DNA of 37,119 bases, taken from the NCBI GenBank assembly GCA_945872825.1, contig CAMCBD010000019.1, forward strand, positions 1-37,119, given 5' to 3'. A program made the translations under genes and the position numbers. Positions 22,382 to 34,622 of this stretch are shown in pieces. The notes beneath the pieces were generated by a model. The model was not told the DNA's origin and did not search any database. It was given only the letters and a program-made list of their open reading frames with translations. Numbering within the stretch: the stretch's first letter is position 1; each line of letters starts with the position of its first letter. The DNA is from Nitrosomonas ureae. GTDB lineage: Bacteria; Pseudomonadota; Gammaproteobacteria; Burkholderiales; Nitrosomonadaceae.

Positions 22382-23437
22382 CTATGCCGTCGTATCGATT
22401 TTTGTGTAAACACCCATCCATGCAATGCCATCATTGCCGATGGTGCCGCGGTACATGCCGCTGGTATTGAAACGCATGGCATAATTGCCGCGCTTATCCA
22501 GTACGATCAAGCCACCGTCACCCCCGATGGCGGCGATTTCTGCCAGTGTGTTATCGGCCGCTTCGGCAATCGGAATGTGCTGTAGCCTAACTTGCACTGC
22601 AGTATTGAAAGCTGCTGCCGTGCGGATGAACATTTCTCCAGTGCCGGTTGCGGATACCGCAACAGAGCGATTGTCCGCGTAAGTTCCAGCGCCGATGATC
22701 GAAGAATCTCCCACGCGGCCGTAGCGTTTGTTCGTGAGCCCACCGGTCGATGTGCCGGCGGCGAGATTACCGTAGCGATCCAGCGCCACCGCACCGACGG
22801 TTCCATGTTTTTCATCCACGCCTGGCAGCGGTGTGCCGGGATCAGAATCGTGGTCACGCAGTATGCTTTCTTTTGCGAGGGCTTTTTGCAATTGATCCCA
22901 GCGGTGTTGCGTGTAAAAATAGGAAGGGTCGACAATTTCCAAACCCTGTTCGGCAGCAAATGCTTCGGCACCCTGGCCGATGAGCATCACATGCGCGCTT
23001 TTTGTCATCACAGCGTGCGCGGCGCGGATTGGATTGCGGATTGTTGTGACACCGGCAACGGCACCTGCCATACGTGTGGCGCCATCCATAATTGACGCTT
23101 CCAGCTCATTGCGGCCAGCATGACTGAAAACCGCGCCTTTGCCCGCATTAAACAAAGGTGAATCTTCCATCACCACGATGGCCGCAATGACAGCATCCAT
23201 ACTGCTGCCGCCTCCTGCAAGCACGGTATGGCCAGCAATCAACGATTGCGCAAGTGCGTGCCTATAAGCTTGCTCACGTTCTGCAGTCAGTTTGTTGCGC
23301 GAGATAGCCCCGGCACCACCGTGGATCACCAGCCGGATGGGCGAATTATCTGCCATAGCTATTCCCGTTTGTAATGTCATGAGCAGCGGAATTAAAGAGG
23401 AGTCTGTGAAGCCAGTAATGATTGGCCGTCTATTCAA
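22382..23437 (-). CDS. iaaA: Isoaspartyl peptidase / L-asparaginase (Ntn-hydrolase)
   Basis: This plant-type asparaginase precursor cleaves itself before a Thr that then acts as the N-terminal nucleophile. The self-cleavage signature KHGTVGAVALD places that Thr at residue 213. Other family marks are LVIHGGAGAI near the N-terminus, VMEDSPLFNAGKGAVF and GDSSIIGAGTYA with STGGLTNKRYGRVGD. It hydrolyses beta-aspartyl dipeptides and asparagine. The longest frame begins at a TTG without a ribosome site. Its first 29 residues look like a weak signal peptide ending AMA. The ATG at 23356 (MADNSPIRLV), with GGGAA upstream, is the alternative cytoplasmic start. The location is therefore open. Confidence 0.88.
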   Translation of the reverse strand: MNRRPIITGFTDSSLIPLLMTLQTGIAMADNSPIRLVIHGGAGAISRNKLTAEREQAYRHALAQSLIAGHTVLAGGGSSMDAVIAAIVVMEDSPLFNAGKGAVFSHAGRNELEASIMDGATRMAGAVAGVTTIRNPIRAAHAVMTKSAHVMLIGQGAEAFAAEQGLEIVDPSYFYTQHRWDQLQKALAKESILRDHDSDPGTPLPGVDEKHGTVGAVALDRYGNLAAGTSTGGLTNKRYGRVGDSSIIGAGTYADNRSVAVSATGTGEMFIRTAAAFNTAVQVRLQHIPIAEAADNTLAEIAAIGGDGGLIVLDKRGNYAMRFNTSGMYRGTIGNDGIAWMGVYTKIDTTA

Positions 23438-23546
23438 TTAATTTTTCGTGTCTTCCTAAATTGCAGCGCCTGCAGTGCTGGCATTAGCGAAATCTGGACA
23501 TATTGACCATCTCCACCACCCGAGAAGCCGCCATCAGGCGCACAAA

Positions 23547-23825
23547 TCATATTGCCGGTTCTGTTATGAAGCTATCGATTATTTGCATAAGCCATAAAGG
23601 GTGGAAGTTTTCTCCATAGCCTTCGACAACAAATGTATTCTCGGATGGAGTCAATCTTAGATGCGCCCAAATCTTTTTATCACCGATTGTTACACAAGGG
23701 ATATGCACAACATTGTTGGTCATGTCGTAACGTGCGGAACATTGTTCCTCCGAAAAAGTTTTTGTCGTGGAAAAAACAAATAGCATGATGCCTGCGATCA
23801 GCCATAGCCCGTATTTTCTCGACAT
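23547..23825 (-). CDS. Small secreted protein of unknown function, possibly frameshifted
   Basis: The 92-residue product starts with a signal peptide (MSRKYGLWLIAGIMLFVFST, cleavage near residue 25). A short beta-rich mature part with two Cys residues follows: CSARYDMTNNVVHIPCVTIG. The ATG has AAAGGA six bases upstream. I do not recognise the family. The frame stops at 23547, but another frame on the same strand stays open from 23571 to 23434. That frame encodes a coding-like Gly-rich segment (NMICAPDGGFSGGGDGQYVQ), so the true protein may be longer and broken by a one-base change near 23571. Confidence 0.6.
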   Translation of the reverse strand: MSRKYGLWLIAGIMLFVFSTTKTFSEEQCSARYDMTNNVVHIPCVTIGDKKIWAHLRLTPSENTFVVEGYGENFHPLWLMQIIDSFITEPAI

Positions 23826-23880
23826 TTCGTATCCTTGCTTTGCTGATAAATAGCATGAAAAATAAATCTACCTGAATATC

Positions 23881-23886
23881 ATTATA
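23881..23886 (-). promoter_or_regulatory. Possible -10 box of the small secreted protein gene
   Basis: A minus-strand TATAAT lies about 56 bases before the start codon at 23825. A good -35 hexamer is not visible at the usual distance, so this is a tentative call. Confidence 0.3.
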
Positions 23887-24047
23887 AAAGTTTCTTTTCT
23901 CAGAAAACAGATAGCAGTTACACTGCGCGATGCAGCCTTGAGAATAATGAGAGCACCGGGCAGTGTCCTTGCGATTCAACCGCAATAAACCGAGCGGAAC
24001 CGGCAGCTTGATATTGCCAAAACCATATACAAGGATAGGATGGAAAG

Positions 24048-24080
24048 CTTAGACCTCTTCCCGAGGAATCTAAGGTTTTT
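24048..24080 (+). terminator. Rho-independent terminator hairpin without an upstream gene
   Basis: CTTAGACCTC (24048-24057) pairs with GAGG plus TCTAAG (24063-24066 and 24069-24074), with a five-base loop and a two-base bulge, then GTTTTT. This has the form of an intrinsic terminator on the plus strand. No plus-strand protein gene lies upstream between 23826 and 24048, so it would end a small RNA or a leader of the gene at 24161. Confidence 0.6.
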
Positions 24081-24160
24081 CCCGGTTACTGGATAGCTCT
24101 GGCAGAAATTTCCGCATCCCAAAGTTTGAAACCCTACAGCGCACAGGAGGTACGTGATCA

Positions 24161-25018
24161 ATGAAGTTCAGTTATAAATTGCAGCAGATGGCGGTATTTA
24201 TCGAATTTCTGGCCGGTGCAGGATTAGCAATTTTCTTCCACTTGGTGTTGCACAATGAAATGGCGTCCTACCTGATTTTTGGTGTCGGAGTGCTTTTGTC
24301 ATTGGCTACCTATCTGCTTCGGGAAGACATAGAAAAGACCCGCACTGAATTGACCGACCTTTACCACCAAGCCCACGAAGTAACCTACGCTATCAGCCGG
24401 GTTACCGATGCCGAATGTCAGGCAAAGGCTCAAGAACTATTGGCTAATACGATGCGCACCATTACCATGTTGCAGAATGGATTTATTCCGCTGGATGAAA
24501 CCGAATTCTACCTGGATGGCGCAAAATGTAGTGATGCGGCCATTCTGCGCATCAGAGCTGTCGATCCGGTAACTTTCGGCTGGCTGGCTCGCGCGACACT
24601 GGTGAATTTCTACCAGAGCAACTTGCGGGCTCTAGAACGGAAGGTCAATATCACACGGATTTTTGTTATGCATCGGGAAGAATTTGTTGAGCCGGAGTTT
24701 CAGAAGATCATGATGGCCCAACTGAAAGACGGGGTCGATATTCGAGTAGCTTTTCGGGATGAGTTCCCTGGAGCTAATGCCGTGAGTGATAGGGATACGA
24801 ATATCCCATGGGATTTTGCGGTGTATGACGAACAGGTTGCAACTGAAGTTTTTCCCCATGCTGGCAAATACTATGGCCGCAAGACCAGTCAACCAGCCGA
24901 GGTGGAGAAATATCTGCACTACTACCAACTGGTTGAGCACAACGCGCATACTGTGATGATTGAAGGGGAGCAGGTAACGCTGGCTAGCGATGTTATAGCC
25001 ATCACTCAGCAAAAATAA
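24161..25018 (+). CDS. Membrane-anchored protein of unknown function
   Basis: The 285-residue protein has two adjacent N-terminal membrane helices (about residues 10-28 and 34-52). A charged helix follows (EDIEKTRTELTDLYHQAHEV), then a soluble C-terminal domain of about 180 residues. That domain contains NFYQSNLRALERKVNITRIFV, FQKIMMAQLKDGVDIRVAF and an end segment HAGKYYGRKTSQPAEVEKYL. The pattern of strand-then-Gly-Val-Asp-Ile-Arg-Val resembles PLD-like or Rossmann-like sensor domains attached to small membrane modules. I cannot name a family. Translation is well supported by AGGAGGT about 10 bases before the ATG. A terminator-like hairpin lies in its leader. Confidence 0.7.
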   Translation: MKFSYKLQQMAVFIEFLAGAGLAIFFHLVLHNEMASYLIFGVGVLLSLATYLLREDIEKTRTELTDLYHQAHEVTYAISRVTDAECQAKAQELLANTMRTITMLQNGFIPLDETEFYLDGAKCSDAAILRIRAVDPVTFGWLARATLVNFYQSNLRALERKVNITRIFVMHREEFVEPEFQKIMMAQLKDGVDIRVAFRDEFPGANAVSDRDTNIPWDFAVYDEQVATEVFPHAGKYYGRKTSQPAEVEKYLHYYQLVEHNAHTVMIEGEQVTLASDVIAITQQK

Positions 25019-25155
25019 TATTCCGGCTATTACCTTGCTGTATGCTATGGCGGGGTTGACCCGTAGCATTAGTATGCGAAAACTAAATCTCACTTTTATT
25101 CTTCATTCTGCTTTATTAAATTTCAGTATGTCTGATAAATCAATCTGATCATTTC

Positions 25156-26066
25156 ATGTTAGAACTTCTCTACAGTCTCGCGTTTCGCCCCTATGTAACC
25201 CTATTCCTGCTGGCTTTTCTGATTCTGAGCTGGGTCGAGCAGGGGATGCTACGTACTTTTATCTGGCTGGTTACGGGCTATCTGGTTGCGCTTGCCGCCG
25301 AGTGGGGAAGCATTAATCACGGCATCCCGTTTGGCTACTATGCGTACCATTACGAAGCGCTGGAAAACGACTTGGTCGTCTTCGGTGTCCCGTTCTTTGA
25401 TTCACTGTCGTTTGTTTTCCTTAGTTACGTGAGTTTTTCGTTCGCACAATTCTTCCTGTCTCCGCACTGGCATCGCGGGTTTAACGTGCAACGCGTAACG
25501 CCACGCGATCTTCGTAACAGCGGCACCATGCTGTTCGTTGGCGCATTTTTCATGATGGTACTGGACTTGATCACTGATCCCGTTGCACATCTGGGTAAGC
25601 ACTGGTTTCTGGGCGATATTTACCACTATCCTGAGCCTGGCTGGCACTTTGACGTTATGCTGGCTGGTTCGTCGTCGGGTGGGTGATCATCTTCATCAAT
25701 CAGCGGATCGATGTGGCACTGGCTAAGCGTGAACCGTTTGGCAACAAACCGTTACAACTACGCTATGTGCCCGGCAAGGGATTGTTCGCGCCATTGTTCT
25801 GGTTCGGCATTGCCATCTTTATGCTGGGAATGACAGCCTGGTTGGGTTGGGGTTATGATCTTGCGCAGGTGCCAATCGCAGAGCGCGAAGCTTTTGTAGC
25901 TGAGACACGTAAGCTGTTTATTGCCGGCACTTTTATCATTGCACCGATTGCCGTGCTTGCCTGGGCGCACCTGACGCGGCGTGGCGGCCAGCCTTCACCC
26001 GAGCAATTGAGCGTGTGGCTGAAGGATTATCCCAATACCAAGCTGAAGGCGCGTTTGGATACTTAG
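25156..26066 (+). pseudogene. Carotenoid biosynthesis protein (CruF/DUF422 family), frameshifted
   Basis: Two adjacent frames encode the two halves of one multi-helix membrane protein. 25156-25686 contains GYLVALAAEWGSINHGIPFG, YYAYHYEALENDLVVFGVPF and LDLITDPVAHLGKHW. 25683-26066 contains VIIFINQRIDVALAKREPFG and the C-terminal helices. This is the Caroten_synth family, which includes the CruF hydratase. Restoring one base near 25668, in a GGTTC run, joins them smoothly as LAGFVVGWVIIFINQRI. The break is therefore a one-base deletion or a sequencing error. The second half begins with GTG overlapping the TGA (GTGA), so reinitiation yielding a split protein is also possible. Confidence 0.8.
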
Positions 26067-26113
26067 TTCTGTTAGTCAGCATACCAATCGAACTGAAACA
26101 AACAATGGGAATC

Positions 26114-27283
26114 TTATCGAACCTGACTGGATTCCTTATTCGCTAACTTGAGTACTTCTGCCGCTGTCAACTGTCCATCCATTTCGCCTTCCCAAGTTGC
26201 GTTGAAAGGCAGGATGTTTTGCACGCGCGTGGCGCGGTCAAGATAGGTTTGTAACGTCATATCCGGTTGCGTGACCGGCGTGGCTACAGCGCGCGGATTG
26301 CGGATGACTTCATCGAGCAGGGCCTGATTGATCTTGGCTTGGGCGCGCGCTTCGCGTTTTGCCTTGGGCGTTGCGCGCACGGCGCTTAACGTTTTCTTAA
26401 GTAACTGAGCGTGATTGCGCTTGTCGTCTTCCAGAATCGGATAGGTTTGCAGATACAACTTCTGGTCACGCCATCCGAGCAGGCGGGGTTGATTCACTAC
26501 GCGAACGGCTGTGCCGACCGGCACGTTATTGTATATGCCTACAATATCTTCCGGATACATGCGCAGACACCCATGACTGCCGCGCAAACCGACACTCGGC
26601 GGTTTATCGGTGCCGTGAATGGCATAGCTCGGCCACGCGAGTTTCAACACATGCGTACCCATCGGGTTATCCGGTCCGGGTGGAACGATGGCAGGCAATG
26701 GATCGCCGTTTTTTGCGTGTTCTTTACGGATGGAGGGCGTCGGTATCCAAGCGGGATTTTCTTTTTTGGACACAACTTGGGTGATGCCTTCCGGCGTCTT
26801 CCATTCCACGCGTCCGATGCCGAGCGGATGAGTGATGACTCGCTGCGGTTCACCGGCCTTGGCTTTGGGAAAATAAAACAAACGCATCGCAGCGAGATTG
26901 ATCACAATGCCTTGGCGCGGCGCATCCGGCAGCACGAACTGGGTGGGGATCACGATTGGAGTGCCTGCTTTCGGCAACCAGGGATCAACATTCGGGTTGG
27001 CGCTGACGATTTCCTCGTAGCCCAAGTTGAAGCGCCGGGCGATATCGGAAAGCGTGTCGTCTTTATTGACGGTGATCACCTGAAGCGTGCCGACCACATC
27101 TTCGCGAGCGGGATCGAAGCTGAACTCATGACTGGCTACCGGAATGGGTAGTGGCTTTACCGATGGTACGGGTGACACCGCTTGTTGGGTTGGGACTAAT
27201 TGGCAGCCGCTCAACAGGAAAAGGCTGATGCAAAAGCTACGTACGAGACTATCGCGGAGTAACGATAAAGGTTTTTTATTCAT
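26114..27283 (-). CDS. L,D-transpeptidase lipoprotein with LysM domain
   Basis: An N-terminal lipoprotein signal ends in LFLLSGC. It is followed by a Pro-rich linker and a LysM peptidoglycan-binding domain (QVITVNKDDTLSDIARRFNL to IVIP). The YkuD catalytic domain has IHGT and the active-site motif SHGCLRMYP. A basic helical C-terminal extension of about 130 residues follows. The enzyme would form 3-3 cross-links in peptidoglycan or attach proteins to it from the periplasmic side. I start at 27283 (MNKKPLSLL) because it gives a normal n-region; an in-frame ATG at 27301 adds six residues. Neither start has a clear ribosome site. Confidence 0.88.
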   Translation of the reverse strand: MNKKPLSLLRDSLVRSFCISLFLLSGCQLVPTQQAVSPVPSVKPLPIPVASHEFSFDPAREDVVGTLQVITVNKDDTLSDIARRFNLGYEEIVSANPNVDPWLPKAGTPIVIPTQFVLPDAPRQGIVINLAAMRLFYFPKAKAGEPQRVITHPLGIGRVEWKTPEGITQVVSKKENPAWIPTPSIRKEHAKNGDPLPAIVPPGPDNPMGTHVLKLAWPSYAIHGTDKPPSVGLRGSHGCLRMYPEDIVGIYNNVPVGTAVRVVNQPRLLGWRDQKLYLQTYPILEDDKRNHAQLLKKTLSAVRATPKAKREARAQAKINQALLDEVIRNPRAVATPVTQPDMTLQTYLDRATRVQNILPFNATWEGEMDGQLTAAEVLKLANKESSQVR

Positions 27284-27590
27284 AGTAATCAACAAGATCA
27301 TTAAAATTTAACGTGATCGATGGCAGTCAATTTACTAGATTTCTCATGATGACACAACCATTAATCACAACAAATCAGGATATTCTCACTGTCATTTAAA
27401 GTATTAGCTGAGAGATAAAAAATGCGTAAAACGCTGCCGGGGCTGTCAATCCGAGCGTTGATTTCGAGTTGCTACCAATGTATTTTTTGACCGGAAAAAT
27501 CGATTGCCAGTATGATTGCTGGCTGGAGAAAACAGCGCTCGATTTTATAGCGTTAAACCGAAATTTTTGCAAAAGCCATAAACGCTCACC

Positions 27591-29108
27591 ATGCCCAAGA
27601 TTTTTATTAACTACCGTCGTGATGATAGTGCAGCCAATGCTGGCCGATTATACGATCGATTGGCAAGCCACTTTGATCCTGACCATCTGTTTATGGATAT
27701 TGATCAAATTGCACCGGGAGATGATTTCACTGAAGTCATCCAAGAAAAACTGGGATCTGTGCAAATTGCTGTTGTTCTGATCGGAAAACACTGGCTCGAT
27801 ATGACTGATTCGAGCGGGCGGCGGCGTTTGGATAATCCGGATGATTTTGTGCGTCTTGAGATTGTCACCTTATTGGAACGAAAAATACGCATCATTCCGG
27901 TTCTGGTCGGTGGGGCTGACATGCCTGAGTCCTCGCAGCTACCCGAATGTCTGATGCCGCTGACGCGACGCCATGCCTATGAAATCAGTAACAATCGATT
28001 CCATACGGATGTTGATAAATTGATTCAGGTATTGGAAAAAGCCATGGGGGTGCAGACGCCATCACCACCGCCTGTGCGCCCCGATTCACCGAAAATACCA
28101 TTCGCGGCTATCCTCGGTGTACTCGTGACCCTCTTGGCGGCATTTGGCTTATTTCATTATTCTCCATGGATTGCACAAGAAACCGGCACGCAGCGTTCGC
28201 AGCCAGTAGCTCCTGAGCCGGAGAAATGGGTGGCAAAGCAATCTACTGTAGAACTGCCCAGTGAAACCAGACTTCCCTTCGAACCCGAAATGGTGCGCAT
28301 TCCATCCGGAAAATTCCGGATGGGTTCGCCTGAGACGGAAGAAGGAAGAGCTTCTGACGAAGGCCCGCAGCACGAAGTTGCTATCTCCCGTCCTTTTGCC
28401 CTCAGCCGTCATGAGATCACCGTCGGGAAGTTCCGGCAATTTGTAGAGGATGTAGGTTACCGCACGACTGCCGAGCAAAGCGGCAAAGGGTGTTATGTAT
28501 GGAATGCGGATAAGAAAGAATTTGAACAATTGCCGGAACGTAACTGGAAAAATCCCGGCTTTAAGCAAAACGACAGTCATCCAGCGGTGTGTGTGTCGTG
28601 GGACGATGTGCAGGCATATATTTCCTGGTTATCGGATCGTTCCGGCAAGCGATACCGGCTGCCGACCGAAGCCGAATGGGAATACGCCGTTCGTGCGGGC
28701 ACCACGACTGCGCGTTTCTTTCCGCACGGCCAGCAATGCCAGTATGCCAATGGTTTAGGGCAAGAAGTGAAAGCCATTGCTGGTTCCCATTTGGTACTGG
28801 CGGAATGTACTGATGATTATGTATATACCGCACCGGTTGGTCGTTTTAAAAGCAATCAATACGGTTTGTCCGATATGTTGGGTAATGTCAATGAATGGAC
28901 GCAGGATTGCGGGCACGATAATTACAACAATGCGCCGGGTGACGGCTCGGTGTGGTTGGACAAGGGCGGCGGCGATTGCAGCCGCCGGGTGGTTCGGGGC
29001 GGTTCGTGGTTCGACGTACCGCAGGTCTTGCGGTCGGCTGACCGTAACAGGGACGTCACCTATAGCGTCAACAGCCTCCTGGGATTTCGTGTCGCCAGGG
29101 ATTTCTGA
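27591..29108 (+). CDS. TIR - transmembrane - FGE-sulfatase (SUMF1-like) protein, candidate DGR target
   Basis: The 505-residue protein has three parts. Residues 1-150 are a TIR_2 domain, with FINYRRDD at 5-12, the MDIDQIAPGDDF loop, and Glu90 in VRLEI at the position of the NADase catalytic Glu. Residues 169-188 form a single membrane helix, with Lys168 and Arg163 on the N-terminal side, so the TIR domain should be cytoplasmic. Residues about 230-505 are an FGE-sulfatase/C-type-lectin-fold domain, ending RRVVRGGSWFDVPQVLRSAD and GFRVARDF. The last 40 codons show many NNC codons at positions usually Asn in DGR targets, and a GC-rich hairpin follows the stop. No strong ribosome site precedes the ATG. 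Confidence 0.9.
   Translation: MPKIFINYRRDDSAANAGRLYDRLASHFDPDHLFMDIDQIAPGDDFTEVIQEKLGSVQIAVVLIGKHWLDMTDSSGRRRLDNPDDFVRLEIVTLLERKIRIIPVLVGGADMPESSQLPECLMPLTRRHAYEISNNRFHTDVDKLIQVLEKAMGVQTPSPPPVRPDSPKIPFAAILGVLVTLLAAFGLFHYSPWIAQETGTQRSQPVAPEPEKWVAKQSTVELPSETRLPFEPEMVRIPSGKFRMGSPETEEGRASDEGPQHEVAISRPFALSRHEITVGKFRQFVEDVGYRTTAEQSGKGCYVWNADKKEFEQLPERNWKNPGFKQNDSHPAVCVSWDDVQAYISWLSDRSGKRYRLPTEAEWEYAVRAGTTTARFFPHGQQCQYANGLGQEVKAIAGSHLVLAECTDDYVYTAPVGRFKSNQYGLSDMLGNVNEWTQDCGHDNYNNAPGDGSVWLDKGGGDCSRRVVRGGSWFDVPQVLRSADRNRDVTYSVNSLLGFRVARDF
28981..29106 (+). other. Candidate DGR variable region at the 3' end of the TIR-FGE gene
   Basis: Between the conserved frames RGGSW, LRSA, RNR and GFRVAR, the codons at exchangeable sites are TTC GAC GTA, GTC, GAC, GAC GTC, TAT AGC GTC AAC AGC CTC CTG. 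Most are NNC, the pattern expected if AAC codons of a template had been changed only at adenines. The template repeat and reverse transcriptase are not in this window, so the assignment is tentative. Confidence 0.5.
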
Positions 29109-29142
29109 TCTTTGTACTTTGTGCTTTTGCCCTTTGCGGGGT

Positions 29143-29161
29143 GCAGGGGCGGAGCCCTTGC
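29143..29161. repeat. GC-rich hairpin 35 bases after the TIR-FGE stop codon
   Basis: GCAGGGGC (29143-29150) and GCCCTTGC (29154-29161) form an 8-base stem with one G-T pair around a GGA loop. No T-run follows, so it is not a normal terminator. Its size and place match the hairpin or cruciform found just past the variable region in many DGR targets. Confidence 0.6.
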
Positions 29162-29190
29162 GGGTTTGGTTCTTAGGGTTTGTGGTTTTG

Positions 29191-29266
29191 TAGGACAGAT
29201 CAGCGCAGCGTCATCCGTCATGAAGGCCGCTTCATGTATCACTCTCCGGTGCATTGCGTTACGCTT
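29191..29266. repeat. REP-like repeat remnants and a small hairpin
   Basis: 29191-29219 (TAGGACAGATCAGCGCAGCG plus nine bases) has the form of a degenerate REP with partly complementary ends. CATGAA (29219-29224) and TTCATG (29231-29236) form a perfect hairpin. 29246-29266 (CCGGTGCATTGCGTTACGCT) resembles the second half of a similar repeat. The whole looks like an eroded REP pair. Confidence 0.4.
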
Positions 29267-29283
29267 AAGGAAACTGAGTAACT

Positions 29284-29352
29284 GTCATTTCGAGCGTAGC
29301 GAGAAATCTATCGTATTAATTATCAAAGATTCCTCACTTTGTTCGGAATGAC
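29284..29352. repeat. Palindromic repeat with 26-base imperfect arms
   Basis: 29284-29309 begins GTCATTTCGAGCGTAGCGAG and 29327-29352 ends GTTCGGAATGAC. The two arms are inverted repeats, matching at 19 of 26 positions, around a 17-base AT-rich centre. It resembles widespread intergenic palindromes of the GTCATTYCGA type. No open frame crosses it with coding character. Confidence 0.65.
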
Positions 29353-29446
29353 CTATGAGGGTTATTCAGAGTTTCCTTCATGGCACCCTGCAGCTCTTAA
29401 ATTTCAGGTACAGTGCTGCCTGCTGAGTTTGCTTATTTAATTACTG

Positions 29447-30202
29447 ATGACATCCGCTGAATCCACCACCATCTTTACGCGATCCTGGTCTTTGTACGAT
29501 CTGATCACGGAACACAATTACATGTTTCATCAGGAAATCTATGCGGGGGTAGGGCGGCTGCTGAGCTTGCGTGAGGATGCGGGGTGTTATCGTTTGCTGG
29601 ATCTGGGTTGCGGCAATGCGCGCTATCTGGCGCCTTGTCTGCGGCAATCTCCTCCGTCGGTGTATGAAGGCGTGGATTTGTCCGAAGCGGCATTGATCGA
29701 GGCGCGTAGCTATTTGGCTGACTTGCCCGGCTCGGCGGTTACGCTGACGCAGGGTAATCTGCTCGAAGCTGTTGAAGCGACCGGCAAAACCTGGGATGTG
29801 ATTTTCACGGGATTTGCTGTGCATCATTTAACGGCTGCGGATAAAGCGCGTTTTTTCCAGGCCATTGGGCGTTGCCTGGCGGAAAATGGCTGGTTGATTT
29901 TGGTGGATGTGGTGCGTGAGGAAAACCAGAGCCGCGAGGATTATCTGGACGGTTATCTGAAATGCATGCGCGACAACTGGATCAAGGTGCCGCCGGATCA
30001 ATTGGAGGAAGCTTGCATGCACGTGCATGATCACGATTATCCGGAGTATTTTTCAACATTACAGGAAATGGCCTCAGCGGCTGGTTTGCAAGCCAGCCGT
30101 GTCGTCAACCAGTACGGGCAGCACAACTACCCTGTTATTTGCGCGTTCTGCCCTGCCAGACATTTAAACGGATCCGACAACCCCCTATGCTGCAAAAACT
30201 GA
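29447..30202 (+). CDS. Class I SAM-dependent methyltransferase
   Basis: The 251-residue protein has the class I fold. Motif I is RLLDLGCGNARYLAP at about residues 49-63, with the acidic residue after strand two in YEGVDLSEAALIEA. Motif II is WDVIFTGFAVHHL, and NGWLILVDVVREE is the strand 5 region. The C-terminal part carries a His-rich stretch, ACMHVHDHDYPEYF, and the end has CAFCPAR. The substrate is unknown. The start ATG at 29447 has only a weak ribosome site. The gene overlaps the start of the BASS transporter by 16 bases, so they are probably co-transcribed. Confidence 0.82.
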   Translation: MTSAESTTIFTRSWSLYDLITEHNYMFHQEIYAGVGRLLSLREDAGCYRLLDLGCGNARYLAPCLRQSPPSVYEGVDLSEAALIEARSYLADLPGSAVTLTQGNLLEAVEATGKTWDVIFTGFAVHHLTAADKARFFQAIGRCLAENGWLILVDVVREENQSREDYLDGYLKCMRDNWIKVPPDQLEEACMHVHDHDYPEYFSTLQEMASAAGLQASRVVNQYGQHNYPVICAFCPARHLNGSDNPLCCKN

Positions 30203-31113
30203 CTCTGTTGTTTCCGTTGTGGATGATACTGGCCGGCGCTATGGCTTTGTCCTCGCCGGAGTGGTTGCTGCCGTTGAATCAAGGGCCGGTCGTGGTATTG
30301 ATTCTGGCTTTTGTCATGCTGTGCATGGGATTGACCCTAACCTTTGATGATTTCCGCCGGATTGCCCGCATGCCGAGAGTAGTGGCGATTGGTTTTGCCG
30401 CACAATATACCATCATGCCTTTGCTGGCCTGGGGAATAGCAATTGGCCTGGATTTGCCGGTGCATTTTGCGGTTGGATTGATTTTGGTGGGTTGTTGTCC
30501 GGGCGGCACGGCTTCGAATCTGGTGTCTTATATTGCGAAAGCCGATGTGGCGCTGTCAGTGGTGATGACCGTTTGTTCCACATTGGCCGCGGTGATCCTG
30601 ACGCCGGTACTGACGCAATTATTTGCGGGCACGCTGGTTTCGGTGGATACCTGGATGTTGTTCAAGCAAACCCTGCAAGTCGTGATTTTACCTGTGGTGC
30701 TGGGCGTTTTGCTCAATCGCTGGGTGCCGCAGCTTGTGCAGCGCGTGATGCCCGTCGCGCCGCTGTTATCCGTGTTGGGTGTGTGTGTGATCTGCGCGGT
30801 GGTGTTTGCGGCCAATGCCGGAACCATTCTCCTATATGGCGGAGAACTGATTCTTGCGGTTGCGTTGTTGCATGGCGGCGGTTTTCTGATTGGCTATCAG
30901 TTTGCGCGGATCTTCGGCTGTCATACTCAGAGTGCCCGCACCATTTCGATTGAAGTCGGCATGCAGAATTCCGGACTGGCGATCGTGCTGGCCAAGCAGG
31001 CATTTCCGATGCTGCCGCTGGCACCGGTTGTGGGGGCGATTTCAGTGCTGATGCATTCTTTGGTCGGCAGTTCGCCGGCGGCACTGTGGCGGGCACGATC
31101 ATCCCAGCGGTAG
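30187..31113 (+). CDS. Bile acid:sodium symporter family (BASS) transporter
   Basis: The 308-residue integral membrane protein has about nine to ten hydrophobic helices and the BASS signature VGCCPGGTASNLVSYIAKAD with VALSVVMT. It also has SIEVGMQNSGLAIVLAKQAF near the C-terminal half, which lines the sodium and substrate site in this family. BASS proteins in plants carry glycolate, pyruvate or other organic anions. Its place directly before the glycolate operon makes an organic-acid substrate worth testing, but this is inference. I start at 30187 (MLQKLTLLFPLW), which gives a normal N-terminus. An upstream in-frame TTG would extend it into the methyltransferase gene. Confidence 0.88.
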   Translation: MLQKLTLLFPLWMILAGAMALSSPEWLLPLNQGPVVVLILAFVMLCMGLTLTFDDFRRIARMPRVVAIGFAAQYTIMPLLAWGIAIGLDLPVHFAVGLILVGCCPGGTASNLVSYIAKADVALSVVMTVCSTLAAVILTPVLTQLFAGTLVSVDTWMLFKQTLQVVILPVVLGVLLNRWVPQLVQRVMPVAPLLSVLGVCVICAVVFAANAGTILLYGGELILAVALLHGGGFLIGYQFARIFGCHTQSARTISIEVGMQNSGLAIVLAKQAFPMLPLAPVVGAISVLMHSLVGSSPAALWRARSSQR

Positions 31114-31178
31114 TTTTTTCTTTCGTTATTCCTGCTGTCGACATATCATTCGACTATCCATTCTCAAAGTAGACAGTT

Positions 31179-32084
31179 ATGGCGAATATCGGTTTTATCG
31201 GTCTGGGCATTATGGGCAAACCCATGGCCGGGCATTTGATCAAGGGCGGGCATAGTCTATTCTTGCATTCGCGCAGTGGCGTGCCTGCCGATTTGGTTGC
31301 ATTGGGCGGCAGGGCATTTTCTTCGCCCAAGGTGGTGGCGCAGCATGCGGATATTATTATCACCATGTTGCCGGATACGCCGGATGTGGAGAAAGTGCTA
31401 TTCGGGGAGAATGGCGTTGTTGAGGGCTTAGAACCTCATTCTGATCAAGCCAAGATGATTGTGGATATGAGCTCGATCTCGCCACTGGAAACACGCAAGT
31501 TTGCGACACGGCTGAATGTGCTGGGGCAAGAGTACGCCGATGCGCCGGTCTCGGGCGGTGATGTGGGGGCGCAAAATGCTATGTTGACTATCATGGTGGG
31601 TGCAAGTACAGCGGTATTTGCAAGAATTAAACCGATTCTCGAATTAATGGGTAAGACGGTTACGCACGTGGGTGAGAATGGCGCCGGTCAGATTTGTAAG
31701 GTCGCCAATCAGATTATTGTGTCATCAACCATAGAGGCCGTGGCTGAGGCATTGCTGTTTGCATCCAAGGCTGGCGCGGATCCGGAAAAAGTGCGGCAAG
31801 CTTTGCTGGGTGGTTTTGCGGCTTCGCGCGTGCTGGAAGTGCATGGCGAACGTATGATTCAGCGGAATTTTGAACCGGGTTTTCGCATCGAGTTACATCA
31901 AAAAGATTTGGATATTGCCTTGGCGAGCGCTTCCGCCCTGGGTGTGAGCCTGCCCAATACCGCAACCGTGCGCGAATTGTTTTCTGCCTGTCTCGCACAT
32001 GGCGGCGCGAAATGGGATAATTCAGCCATTGTAAAAATGCTGGAAAAATTAGCCAATCACGAAATTCAAAAGCATCCGGAATAA
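31179..32084 (+). CDS. glxR: 2-hydroxy-3-oxopropionate (tartronate semialdehyde) reductase
   Basis: This NAD(P)-dependent beta-hydroxyacid dehydrogenase would reduce tartronate semialdehyde, made from two glyoxylates by glyoxylate carboligase, to D-glycerate. The 301-residue protein has the Rossmann motif IGFIGLGIMGKPMAGH at residues 4-19. It also has the substrate loop DAPVSGGDVGAQNA, the catalytic Lys in GAGQICKVANQ, and the C-terminal HQKDLDIALASA signature. Related enzymes act on 3-hydroxyisobutyrate, but the adjoining glcDEF genes favour the glyoxylate route. glcD begins 4 bases after its stop. Confidence 0.88.
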   Translation: MANIGFIGLGIMGKPMAGHLIKGGHSLFLHSRSGVPADLVALGGRAFSSPKVVAQHADIIITMLPDTPDVEKVLFGENGVVEGLEPHSDQAKMIVDMSSISPLETRKFATRLNVLGQEYADAPVSGGDVGAQNAMLTIMVGASTAVFARIKPILELMGKTVTHVGENGAGQICKVANQIIVSSTIEAVAEALLFASKAGADPEKVRQALLGGFAASRVLEVHGERMIQRNFEPGFRIELHQKDLDIALASASALGVSLPNTATVRELFSACLAHGGAKWDNSAIVKMLEKLANHEIQKHPE

Positions 32085-32088
32085 TTGT

Positions 32089-33543
32089 ATGTCTCCTCAA
32101 GAACTCGTCAATAATTTGCGGTCTTTTTTGCCTCCCGAGGCGGTGTTGTATGAAACCGAAGATTTAAGGCCGTATGAGTGCGATGGTCTGTCGGCTTACC
32201 GGCAATTACCGATGGTGGTTGTTTTGCCGCGAACGGAAGAACAAATCGTCAAAATTCTCAAGCTCTGTTATGCAACTCAAACACCTGTTGTGGCGCGGGG
32301 CGCGGGTACCGGATTGTCGGGAGGCGCATTGCCGCATGCCCAAGGTGTTTTGCTGTCGCTCGCCAAGTTGAACCAAATCATCGCGATTGATCCGCTCGCC
32401 CGCATGGCACGCGTTCAACCGGGTGTCAGGAATCTGGCGATCAGTGAGGCGGTGGCGGCGTATAGTTTGTATTATGCACCGGATCCTTCGTCACAAATTG
32501 CTTGTTCGATTGGCGGCAATGTGGCGGAAAACTCAGGTGGTGTGCATTGTCTAAAATATGGCCTCACCGTGCATAACATCCTCAAATTGCGCGTTCTGAC
32601 TATCGAGGGCGAGTGCCTGGAAATTGGCGGTGAAAGCCTGGACAGTGCGGGATATGATTTGCTGGCGTTGATGACGGGCAGTGAAGGCATGCTGGGCATT
32701 GTCACGGAAGTTACGGTAAAGCTGATTCCGGTACCCGAAAAGGCGCAACTGGTGATGGCGGCGTTTGATGATGTGCACAAAGCCGGTAATGCGGTGGCGA
32801 ATGTGATTGGTGCGGGCATTATTCCTGCCGGTATGGAAATGATGGATAAAATTACCATCCATGCGGTGGAAGAATTTTTGCATGCGGGTTATGACTTGGA
32901 TGCGGCGGCTATTTTGTTGTGTGAATCGGATGGAAGCGCTGAGGAAGTGGCCGATGAGATCAATCGCATTTATGCCATCATGCAGCAAAGTGGCGCGACT
33001 AAAATCAGTACTTCACAAAATGAAGCTGAGCGGCTTAGGTTCTGGGCTGGGCGTAAAGCGGCATTTCCGGCAGCGGGCAGAGTTTCTCCGGATTATTACT
33101 GTATGGATGGCACCATTCCGCGCAAGCATCTGGCGCATGTGCTGGACGGCATTGAAAAACTTTCCCAGGAATATGGATTGCGCTGCATGAATGTGTTTCA
33201 TGCCGGAGATGGCAACCTGCATCCGTTGATTCTGTATGATGCCAATCAACCGGGTGAACTGGAGAGAACGGAAGAATTTGGTGGCAAGATACTGGAAATG
33301 TGTATTCATGCTGGCGGTACGATCACCGGAGAACATGGTGTGGGGATGGAGAAAATCAATCAGATGTGCACCCAATTTAAAACGGGCGAGCTGGAAATGT
33401 TTCATGCGGTGAAAGCGGCATTCGATCCTGCAGGATTGTTGAATCCCGGTAAAGCTGTGCCCACACTACATCGCTGTGCAGAATTGGGTGCGATGCATGT
33501 GCATCGCGGTGAAGAAAAATTTGCTGAATTGCCGCGTTTTTAA
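32089..33543 (+). CDS. glcD: Glycolate oxidase, FAD-linked subunit GlcD
   Basis: GlcD is the large flavin subunit of glycolate dehydrogenase, which oxidises glycolate to glyoxylate and passes electrons through GlcF to the respiratory chain. The 484-residue protein has the FAD-binding PCMH-type domain (VARGAGTGLSGGALPHAQGV, CSIGGNVAENSGGVHCLKYG) and a C-terminal FAD-oxidase domain. The latter carries MNVFHAGDGNLHPLILYD and the end GTITGEHGVGMEKI, followed by FDPAGLLNPGKAVP. The length is normal. It is translated just after glxR and five bases before glcE. Confidence 0.95.
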   Translation: MSPQELVNNLRSFLPPEAVLYETEDLRPYECDGLSAYRQLPMVVVLPRTEEQIVKILKLCYATQTPVVARGAGTGLSGGALPHAQGVLLSLAKLNQIIAIDPLARMARVQPGVRNLAISEAVAAYSLYYAPDPSSQIACSIGGNVAENSGGVHCLKYGLTVHNILKLRVLTIEGECLEIGGESLDSAGYDLLALMTGSEGMLGIVTEVTVKLIPVPEKAQLVMAAFDDVHKAGNAVANVIGAGIIPAGMEMMDKITIHAVEEFLHAGYDLDAAAILLCESDGSAEEVADEINRIYAIMQQSGATKISTSQNEAERLRFWAGRKAAFPAAGRVSPDYYCMDGTIPRKHLAHVLDGIEKLSQEYGLRCMNVFHAGDGNLHPLILYDANQPGELERTEEFGGKILEMCIHAGGTITGEHGVGMEKINQMCTQFKTGELEMFHAVKAAFDPAGLLNPGKAVPTLHRCAELGAMHVHRGEEKFAELPRF

Positions 33544-33548
33544 AGCCC

Positions 33549-34622
33549 ATGCAAGCCATTATTGACCAATACAAAGCAACTATTCGTGCTGCGGCTGAAC
33601 AGAAAACACCGCTGCAGATACGCGGCGGCGGCACGAAAGACTTTTATGGCAACTCGGTAGTGACTCCAAGTAACACGATACTGGATGCGACAGCTTATTG
33701 CGGCATTATTGATTATGAGCCGACTGAGTTGGTTATTACTGCACGTGCAGGTACGCGCCTGGCTGATTTGGAAGCTGCGCTGGACCAAAAGGGGCAAATG
33801 CTGGCGTTTGAGCCACCCTATTTTGGCGCGGCGGCAACGTTGGGTGGCTGCATTGCTGCCGGTTTGTCGGGTCCGCGTCGTGCTGCTGCCGGTTCGGTGC
33901 GTGATTTTGTGCTGGGTGTGCGACTACTCAATGGTAGAGGGGATGATCTAAGTTTCGGCGGGCAGGTGATGAAGAATGTTGCGGGTTATGATGTTTCGCG
34001 ACTGATGGTGGGTGCTATGGGTACGCTAGGGATGTTGCTTGAAGTTTCGCTCAAAGTTTTGCCTAAGCCTATGACCGGAATTACTCTACATATGCAAATG
34101 GATGAAGCTGCAGCTATCGAGAAAATGAATCAATGGGCCGGTAAGCCGCTGCCGATTTCTGCGACTTGTTATAGGAATGGTGGATTGTTTCTCCGGTTAT
34201 CCGGTGCTGAGTCAGCGGTGCGTGCGGCCCAGTTAAAATTGGGTGGCGAAGAACTCATTGAAGGTGAAGTTTTCTGGAAATCGGTGCGCGAACAAACGCA
34301 TGAATTTTTCCAATCTGCTGATTCCCTGTGGCGTTTATCGATCAATCCGACAACACCTCCTCTGTCTTTACCTGGAGAACAGCTAATAGAATGGAATGGC
34401 GGTTTGCGCTGGTTACTTAGTAATGAAAATTTGGGTGCAGTAACCATTCGCAAAACAGCAAAAGATGCGGGAGGGCATGCGACTTTGTTTCGCAGCAATA
34501 AGCCGGGTATTTCCGTGTTTCATCCGCTTGATCCCAACATGATGAAAATTCATTGTGTGCTGAAAGAAAAATTTGATCCGTCGCGGATCTTGAATCCCGG
34601 TCGACTTTATCCTGAGATCTAA
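33549..34622 (+). CDS. glcE: Glycolate oxidase, FAD-binding subunit GlcE
   Basis: GlcE is the smaller FAD-binding partner of GlcD. The 357-residue protein has LQIRGGGTKDFYGN near residues 22-35, AFEPPYFGAAATLGGCIAAG, GPRRAAAGSVRDFVLGVRLL and FGGQVMKNVAGYDVSRLMVG, all typical of GlcE. The C-terminus ends FDPSRILNPGRLYPEI, parallel to the GlcD ending. The ATG lies five bases after the glcD stop, and its own stop is immediately followed by the glcF ATG, so the three subunits are probably made in step. Confidence 0.94.
   Translation: MQAIIDQYKATIRAAAEQKTPLQIRGGGTKDFYGNSVVTPSNTILDATAYCGIIDYEPTELVITARAGTRLADLEAALDQKGQMLAFEPPYFGAAATLGGCIAAGLSGPRRAAAGSVRDFVLGVRLLNGRGDDLSFGGQVMKNVAGYDVSRLMVGAMGTLGMLLEVSLKVLPKPMTGITLHMQMDEAAAIEKMNQWAGKPLPISATCYRNGGLFLRLSGAESAVRAAQLKLGGEELIEGEVFWKSVREQTHEFFQSADSLWRLSINPTTPPLSLPGEQLIEWNGGLRWLLSNENLGAVTIRKTAKDAGGHATLFRSNKPGISVFHPLDPNMMKIHCVLKEKFDPSRILNPGRLYPEI

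Follow-up and report, generated by a model that had tools for sequence, protein, structure and literature searches.

Variable proteins that combine diversification by diversity-generating retroelements (DGRs) with an effector domain may, it has been proposed, serve as adaptive antigen sensors, a role described by the authors as still to be tested (Dore et al., 2024, PMC10907252). As described in that paper, clade-5A cellular DGR conflict loci carry a MoxR-like ATPase gene and two targets, one long and with no named domain at its N-terminus, the other short and with a C-type-lectin (CLec) domain only; they also have remote targets reached in trans, and their sensors are predicted in the cytoplasm and in the periplasm. 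Each of these features has a counterpart in the material treated here, the ATPase as an AAA_5 gene. What differs from the loci described there is a free-standing TIR-FGE gene (FGE, formylglycine-generating enzyme) that lies well away from the cassette locus, the genome having no detected DGR reverse transcriptase (RT) or template repeat (TR). The targets described in another study (PMC7517822) likewise include multidomain CLec variable proteins, some of them TIR-like, with the variable repeat (VR) near the gene 3' end, and many of them are remote. Each remote target in that study was attributed to a DGR in the same genome, whereas for the present gene none was found, and its TIR and CLec domains are joined by a membrane helix, a feature that the descriptions of variable proteins in that study do not mention. 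TIR-bearing and remote DGR targets are, as these two sources describe them, already in print (PMC7517822, PMC10907252), and the unusual part of the present case is a VR repertoire in an RT-less genome. A literature search that covered few subscription journals returned nothing that we recognised on VR repertoires of RT-less genomes or on TIR-FGE targets of this genus.

The gene was found in a stretch of 37,119 nucleotides from Nitrosomonas ureae (the window), which is contig C19 of the genome G000, an assembly of 2.76 Mb in 151 contigs that is 97.7% complete. It occupies positions 27591..29108 of the forward strand, on which all features below lie, and encodes 505 amino acids plus the stop codon (open reading frame list, Pfam). 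The best explanation of this gene, in which we have fairly high confidence, is an orphaned TIR sensor built by a DGR. It is intact, unlike several VR genes in the same genome. Because the neighbouring genes are ordinary (YkuD/LysM, a methyltransferase, an SBF transporter and FAD oxidase subunits), the protein likely acts alone.

An N-terminal TIR domain with Glu90 as the putative NADase residue had been expected from the first reading of the sequence, and the domain searches agree. Pfam places a SARM1-like TIR_2 domain at amino acids 4-143 (27600..28019; 4.4e-9), the best match of this part to SARM1 structures reaches 1.2e-6, and Glu90 (codon 27858..27860) aligns with the glutamate in HKEIVTAL of SARM1, which we take to be the catalytic E642. 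This glutamate is kept in all nine TIR_2-FGE proteins aligned. The dN/dS of the TIR codons is 0.09-0.14 in the five of eight comparisons for which dS was estimable, dS being mostly near saturation, and these codons appear to be under purifying selection. The sole PADLOC match of the protein is weak and partial (ThsB, amino acids 3-61, 26 bits), and the AlphaFold model of the TIR part is unreliable and unusable, with pLDDT mostly below 50. Alternatively, the TIR domain might have no enzymatic role and serve as a scaffold, in a protein that functions in surface binding or kin recognition; TIR activity is a prediction from sequence, and kin recognition is raised as an alternative role in the text of Dore et al. 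(PMC10907252). We regard this as unlikely, since the conservation of Glu90 within a SARM1-like sequence and the low dN/dS argue against a scaffold. The conserved glutamate, the low dN/dS and a randomly redrawn variable face would together fit a sensor that triggers a TIR response.

One hydrophobic segment, at about amino acids 169-187 (28095..28151; Kyte-Doolittle, window of 19), is predicted as a single membrane helix with Lys168 on its TIR side, as had been proposed. The proposed FGE/C-type-lectin-fold domain was also recovered, as an FGE-sulfatase domain at amino acids 231-503 (28281..29099; Pfam 1.6e-62). Its fold is that of PvdO and formylglycine-generating enzyme (PDB 5hha, 1y1h) and of Treponema denticola variable protein 1 (2y3c; so named in the PDB), which is a DGR target and in which, unlike the window protein, no TIR was matched. 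PvdO is nearest to this part (sequence 4.4e-52; Foldseek 7.2e-26, TMt 0.84), and the AlphaFold model of the domain has good confidence over most of its length, the weaker parts being 303-325 and 388-404. In the alignment, the catalytic cysteine pair of FGE (C336/C341 of human FGE, numbered after PDB entry titles) is absent, the corresponding window positions being other residues inside the VR. A C-type-lectin/FGE-fold domain with a VR at its end, as expected of a DGR variable protein, was thus found by Pfam and by sequence and structure matches. The hypervariable face had been placed outside the cell, and this part of the original prediction is uncertain: a membrane helix was found in six of the nine TIR-FGE homologues including the window protein, and is lacking in those of G094, G079 and G081, the first of which is the cleanest case of trans targeting.

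The VR spans 115 nt (28983..29097), and the 38 codons starting at 28983 are RRVVRGGSWFDVPQVLRSADRNRDVTYSVNSLLGFRVA. In a search of 61 genomes, three of the same genus (G006, G021 and G008) were found to have a short third copy of this segment beside an RT gene, and G094 and G090 were added later. All five have Avd-RT-TR cassettes with an AAC-rich template, which in G021 reads TGG AAC AAC AAT CCA CAG AAC ... GCC AAC AAC AAC CTG GGT. The genes beside the G021 template encode Avd (bAvd, 3.6e-15) and an RT (RVT_1, 2.9e-19) with the sequence IGLPLGNLTSQ, which we take to be a DGR-type motif, and the RTs of G094, G090, G006 and G008 are 94%, 80%, 79% and 68% identical to it, respectively. The G021 template repeat (L090:6602-6720) overlaps the final 59 bases of the RT gene.

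Compared with the G021 template, the window VR is changed at 19 of the 32 template adenines and at 6 of the 83 other bases (Fisher 1.1e-8), and 9 of the 11 AAY codons of the template are altered. By its sequence the 3' segment of the window gene is a true DGR VR, as the original prediction of a DGR target held, and the AAC-rich template bears out its proposal that AAC codons were the source of the NNC codons. When the AAY codons were followed through the five related VRs of this genome, positions 1 and 2 were altered in 67 of 110 cases and position 3 in 2 of 55 (p=4e-14). In the FGE codons upstream of the VR, position 3 is the one that differs most between the window gene and its relative C8b (131/252 vs 69 and 66).

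The VRs beside the cassettes show the same adenine signature against the template of their own genome. The changes at adenine and at other positions are 14/32 and 10/32 with 0/83 twice in G006, 19/32 and 20/32 with 0/83 twice in G021, 17/31 twice with 1/84 twice in G008, 23/30 and 21/31 with 0/84 and 1/84 in G094, and 15/31 and 16/31 with 2/84 and 3/84 in G090. For remote VRs the corresponding values are 20/31 and 12/84 (G008:C77) and 19/29 and 9/83 (G090:C5), and a fragment in G006 (G006x) is without adenine bias (14/32 and 30/83). In total, 51 VR-like matches were each scored against whichever of the five templates gave the fewest non-adenine mismatches, and the p-values are slightly favourable because the best-fitting template was chosen for each VR; adenine bias at p<0.01 was obtained for 45 of them. 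The exceptions are G006x, G021:C2, G090:C1b, G100, G108_4196 and G079, the last being the one among the nine TIR-FGE genes with p=0.018. G021:C2, G090:C1b, G100 and G108_4196 look like templates or other classes, and G021:C2 and G090:C1b fall in other template classes. Six weaker template matches (G070:C43, G102:C20, G081:C15, G081:C239, G079:C2 and G071:C86) were left out of this comparison.

When positions 28970-29180 were compared by BLAST with the genome of the window, four near-copies with 77-79% identity were found, each at the 3' end of a further FGE gene, on contigs C7, C52 and, in two copies, C8 (C8a and C8b), and the alignment continues past the stop codon. The C52 gene (385 amino acids) and, by sequence, the C7 gene also encode TIR-FGE proteins, with a TIR type unlike that of the window gene. 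Against the G021 TR, the five VRs are changed at 19/32 (C19), 15/32 (C7), 18/32 (C52), 20/32 (C8a) and 18/32 (C8b) adenines, 90/160 in total, and at 6/83, 2/83, 4/83, 2/73 and 2/83 other bases, 16/405 in total. The C8a VR has a 10-base gap, for which an automatic alignment gave 6/82 non-adenine mismatches and the multiple alignment used here 2/73. Four of the six non-adenine differences of the window VR are private, one is also present in C52 and one in all five VRs. These differences suggest decay or an older template allele, and the last rewriting of the window VR may therefore be old.

A GC-rich hairpin after the stop codon, also part of the original prediction, was confirmed at 29143..29161 (GCAGGGGC-GGA-GCCCTTGC), 45 nt past the end of the VR core. 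When up to two mismatches were allowed, the pattern GCAGGGGCGNAGCCCCTGC had four occurrences in the 2.76-Mb assembly, in each case directly after a VR (C7, C8a, C19 and C52), and a reversed-pattern control gave 0 occurrences. As DNA, the window 19-mer folds at -5.7 kcal/mol (z -2.4), and the 46-nt surroundings are unremarkable (z -0.9). In the mtd gene of BPP-1, a GC-rich 8-bp stem similarly stands soon after the VR and stop codon, and efficient homing needs this hairpin structure; the loop of BPP-1 has 4 nt and the hairpin lies within 24 bp of the VR, whereas the window has a 3-nt GNA loop at about 45 nt from the VR core, and several diversified VRs here, unlike mtd as described there, have no hairpin (Guo et al., 2011, PMC3240598). 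Since it is absent after the C8b VR and after both G021 VRs, the hairpin cannot be a general requirement. Another inverted repeat (roughly GGATNAGCGNAGCG..ATCC) is present at 29193-29216 and after many VRs, and has the look of a general intergenic repeat.

The 3' end of the gene might alternatively be that of an ordinary FGE protein, in which RGGSW..LRSA..R..GFRVA is a family motif and the NNC codons reflect codon bias. The motif is in part a family feature, since the consensus of distant FGE relatives from other phyla has RGGSW, LRSA-R and GFR, and NNC codons account for 106 of the 464 codons ahead of the VR. This combination of plain conservation and codon bias is scarcely credible, and is ruled out by the DNA match to a template that differs mainly at adenines, by third codon positions that are nearly frozen and by a hairpin specific to VRs.

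A second template class, likewise AAC-rich, was found in G090 near a second RT and bAvd gene, where the neighbouring VR differs from it at 15/26 adenines and 0/94 other bases. Against this template, FGE genes of the window's genome on C48 (L021:7258-7387), C9 (L018:6590-6715) and C22 (L019:6928-7060) are changed at 16/26, 17/26 and 19/26 adenines and at 10/94, 12/94 and 16/94 other bases, respectively. The genome has five first-class VRs and probably three of the second class, which would make eight in all, with no DGR RT found. On C48, the VR gene is preceded by a frame that we read as having a P-loop-like GNSGSGKSS motif. Several of these genes carry lesions: 10 bases are missing from the C8a VR and the frame is split upstream, and in-frame stops are present in C7 (TAG), C48 (TGA/TAA) and C9 (TGA). 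These fit a relaxed upkeep, or may be sequencing errors instead, and VR indels occur also in the RT-bearing G021 and G094.

A genome-wide search for a DGR RT and a template repeat, proposed as a check of the original prediction, found neither in the assembly. The G021 RT and bAvd queries gave no match in G000, and the template-repeat query returned only the five VRs, so that the window VR is an orphan outside a complete DGR. The sole RVT_1 match of the genome is a 1011-amino-acid protein on another contig (G000:C26, L013:4589-7621), which was rejected as the DGR RT since PADLOC assigns it to the RT_UG5-nitrilase defence RTs (1050 bits). On C8, the AAA_5 (MoxR-like) ATPase gene is followed by the long target and the short target; this order matches the clade-5A layout except for the RT, a likeness by gene order and not by RT phylogeny. 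At the position of the Avd-RT-TR segment of G021 (about 1.66 kb), this genome has about 150 nt, and both sides are 86.6-86.7% identical to G021. G019, assembled in one contig, is likewise empty at the cassette site, and the two genomes align continuously there at 88%.

Across the genus, the template is matched in 25 of 85 genomes, of which 5 have a cognate RT (at least 68% identity), 18 have no RT of this class, and 2 (G100 and G108) have another DGR-like RT beside the match. Of the 18, G071 retains bAvd together with part of an RT from a different class, and broken pieces of an RT are present in G084. The near-closed genomes G019, G028 and G075 (one contig each) and G080 and G097 (two each) have VR-like ends and no match to the cognate RT or bAvd; G019 has no RVT_1 match at all and G028 has one, in a 563-amino-acid frame. 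The VRs of these five congeners are adenine-biased, more weakly in G075 and G097 (16/32 adenines each, vs 17/83 and 15/83 other bases). Tentatively, and with somewhat less than even confidence, we suggest that the DGR core is an accessory that comes and goes in the genus while the VR-bearing sensors stay.

Comparison of the orthologous C8 loci of G000 and G019 gives information on timing. Upstream of the VRs, the coding sequences differ by 9% (long target) and 15% (short target). In the VRs themselves, 20/32 and 14/32 adenine sites differ and only 4/66 and 1/83 other sites, and because orthologous VRs differ at adenine sites and hardly elsewhere, diversification continued after the species split. 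Since this rewriting postdates the divergence from G019 and both sites are without a cassette, a DGR either acted from another place or was lost more than once; cassette loss would be recent or repeated, or the RT located elsewhere or in other strains. Absence of an RT and TR from the genome and an even spread of differences between strains had been named as findings that would speak against a DGR target; the former was found, and the latter was not, as judged between species, with one genome for each.

With 97.7% completeness and 151 contigs, the assembly may have missed a cassette. In this case, or if only some strains of the species have the cassette, the gene would still be diversified in trans. 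The near-unrelatedness of the G000 and G019 VRs at adenine sites with almost identical other sites speaks for a persisting cassette, as does the similarity at adenine sites in 903 pairs of 43 VRs (8 of the 51 were dropped), which is about as expected from independent draws; G094 has trans targets, and among the loci described by Dore et al. (PMC10907252) are some that are disrupted in the reference genome and intact in structural variants. Even so, we give persistence a low probability: no cassette component (RT, Avd or TR) was found in the assembly, the C8 contig reads through the empty cassette site, and VR-like ends that lack the cognate genes occur in five near-closed congeners as well, two of them with weaker adenine bias. 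In the preferred explanation, the absence of the cassette would reflect loss rather than missing data, and because the cassette is absent at its locus and was not found elsewhere, the specificity of the window gene would now be fixed, together with those of four, and probably seven, sibling VRs.

Genes for TIR_2-FGE proteins ending in such a VR are present in nine genomes (G000, G005, G015, G023, G079, G081, G090, G092 and G094), and five of the eight other loci (G015, G094, G079, G005 and G092) have flanking genes in common with the window locus. In G094, the TIR-FGE gene (contig C80) and the DGR (C68) are on different contigs, and even with these placed end to end at least about 29 kb would separate the two; the VR of the TIR-FGE gene is changed from the template of the same genome at 16 of 31 adenines and at 0 of 84 other bases. 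Because this gene lies off the DGR contig and matches its own genome's template except at adenines, the TIR-FGE proteins are trans targets. The claim of diversification in trans thus stands for the family, in the congener G094, and not for the window's own genome, whose assembly yielded neither a DGR RT nor Avd nor a TR; for this reason it refers to the past or to relatives, with no demonstrated present activity. The template fit is poorer for the TIR-FGE VRs of G005 (16/32 adenines, 16/83 others) and G079 (11/31, 12/84).

The FGE domain of the window protein is 63% identical to that of the second, short-type target on C8 and 43-46% identical to those of the eight other TIR-FGE proteins, and a swap of this domain in the window gene is therefore likely. 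Over 23340-34059 of the window, the flanks are 87-92% identical to G015 and the TIR segment 72%. The TIR-FGE gene appears to diverge far faster than its neighbours or to have been replaced. A scan of genome contigs, from which records of the same genome were possibly excluded, gave 26 loci with a best identity of 42%, which are FGE relatives and none of which matches over the TIR.

Such a swap would also be in keeping with VRs that keep changing by mutual gene conversion after RT loss, so that RT-less genomes shuffle rather than freeze their repertoire. The tandem C8a and C8b VRs have a common run of five derived adenine-site states (simulated p=0.006, uncorrected for 903 pairs), and runs at p<0.01 are present in 2 of 30 within-genome pairs vs 1 of 873 between-genome pairs. 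These pairs are few, however, and one of the two within-genome runs is in the RT-bearing G094; the C19 VR has no run with p<0.1 against the other four VRs of its genome, total similarity is significant at p<0.01 for 1 of the 30 pairs within genomes, and mosaics like these would also arise through partial-length retrohoming or from a common ancestor. With runs at p<0.01 in 3 of 903 pairs, a general excess of VR-to-VR conversion was not found, and we consider continued shuffling quite improbable.

According to the mechanism that we propose for an orphaned DGR-built sensor, the C-terminal FGE/CLec domain would bind a ligand via the face set by the VR, and binding would cluster the N-terminal TIR domain, which would probably cleave NAD+ or make a nucleotide signal in an anti-phage or conflict response. 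The VR would have been made by mutagenic retrohoming, in which a DGR RT and Avd copy an AAC-rich template with random adenine changes and the mutated copy takes the place of the gene's 3' end; shared 3' sequence, and probably also the hairpin after the stop codon, would direct this replacement. The window gene would be a past trans target of the Avd-RT-TR cassette sited in relatives between the long and short target genes. If the DGR core does come and go within the genus, immune-type specificities made in one lineage or period would be inherited in another as fixed receptors, and RT-less species or strains would keep randomly drawn TIR and other sensors that are refreshed when a cassette returns. 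The case is a compact one, with effector and hypervariable sensor in one protein of 505 amino acids, at a locus that is common to several species and at which the DGR of a congener reaches the TIR-FGE gene in trans. RT-less genomes are natural controls; should their fixed sensors still be able to trigger the TIR, diversification could be tested separately from sensing.

Other N-termini are also joined to VRs of the same class, as in a protein of G070 with ParA-like and TIR_2 domains (L189:5033-7606) and in the G008:C77 protein with a Trypsin_2 domain (L105:2166-3776).
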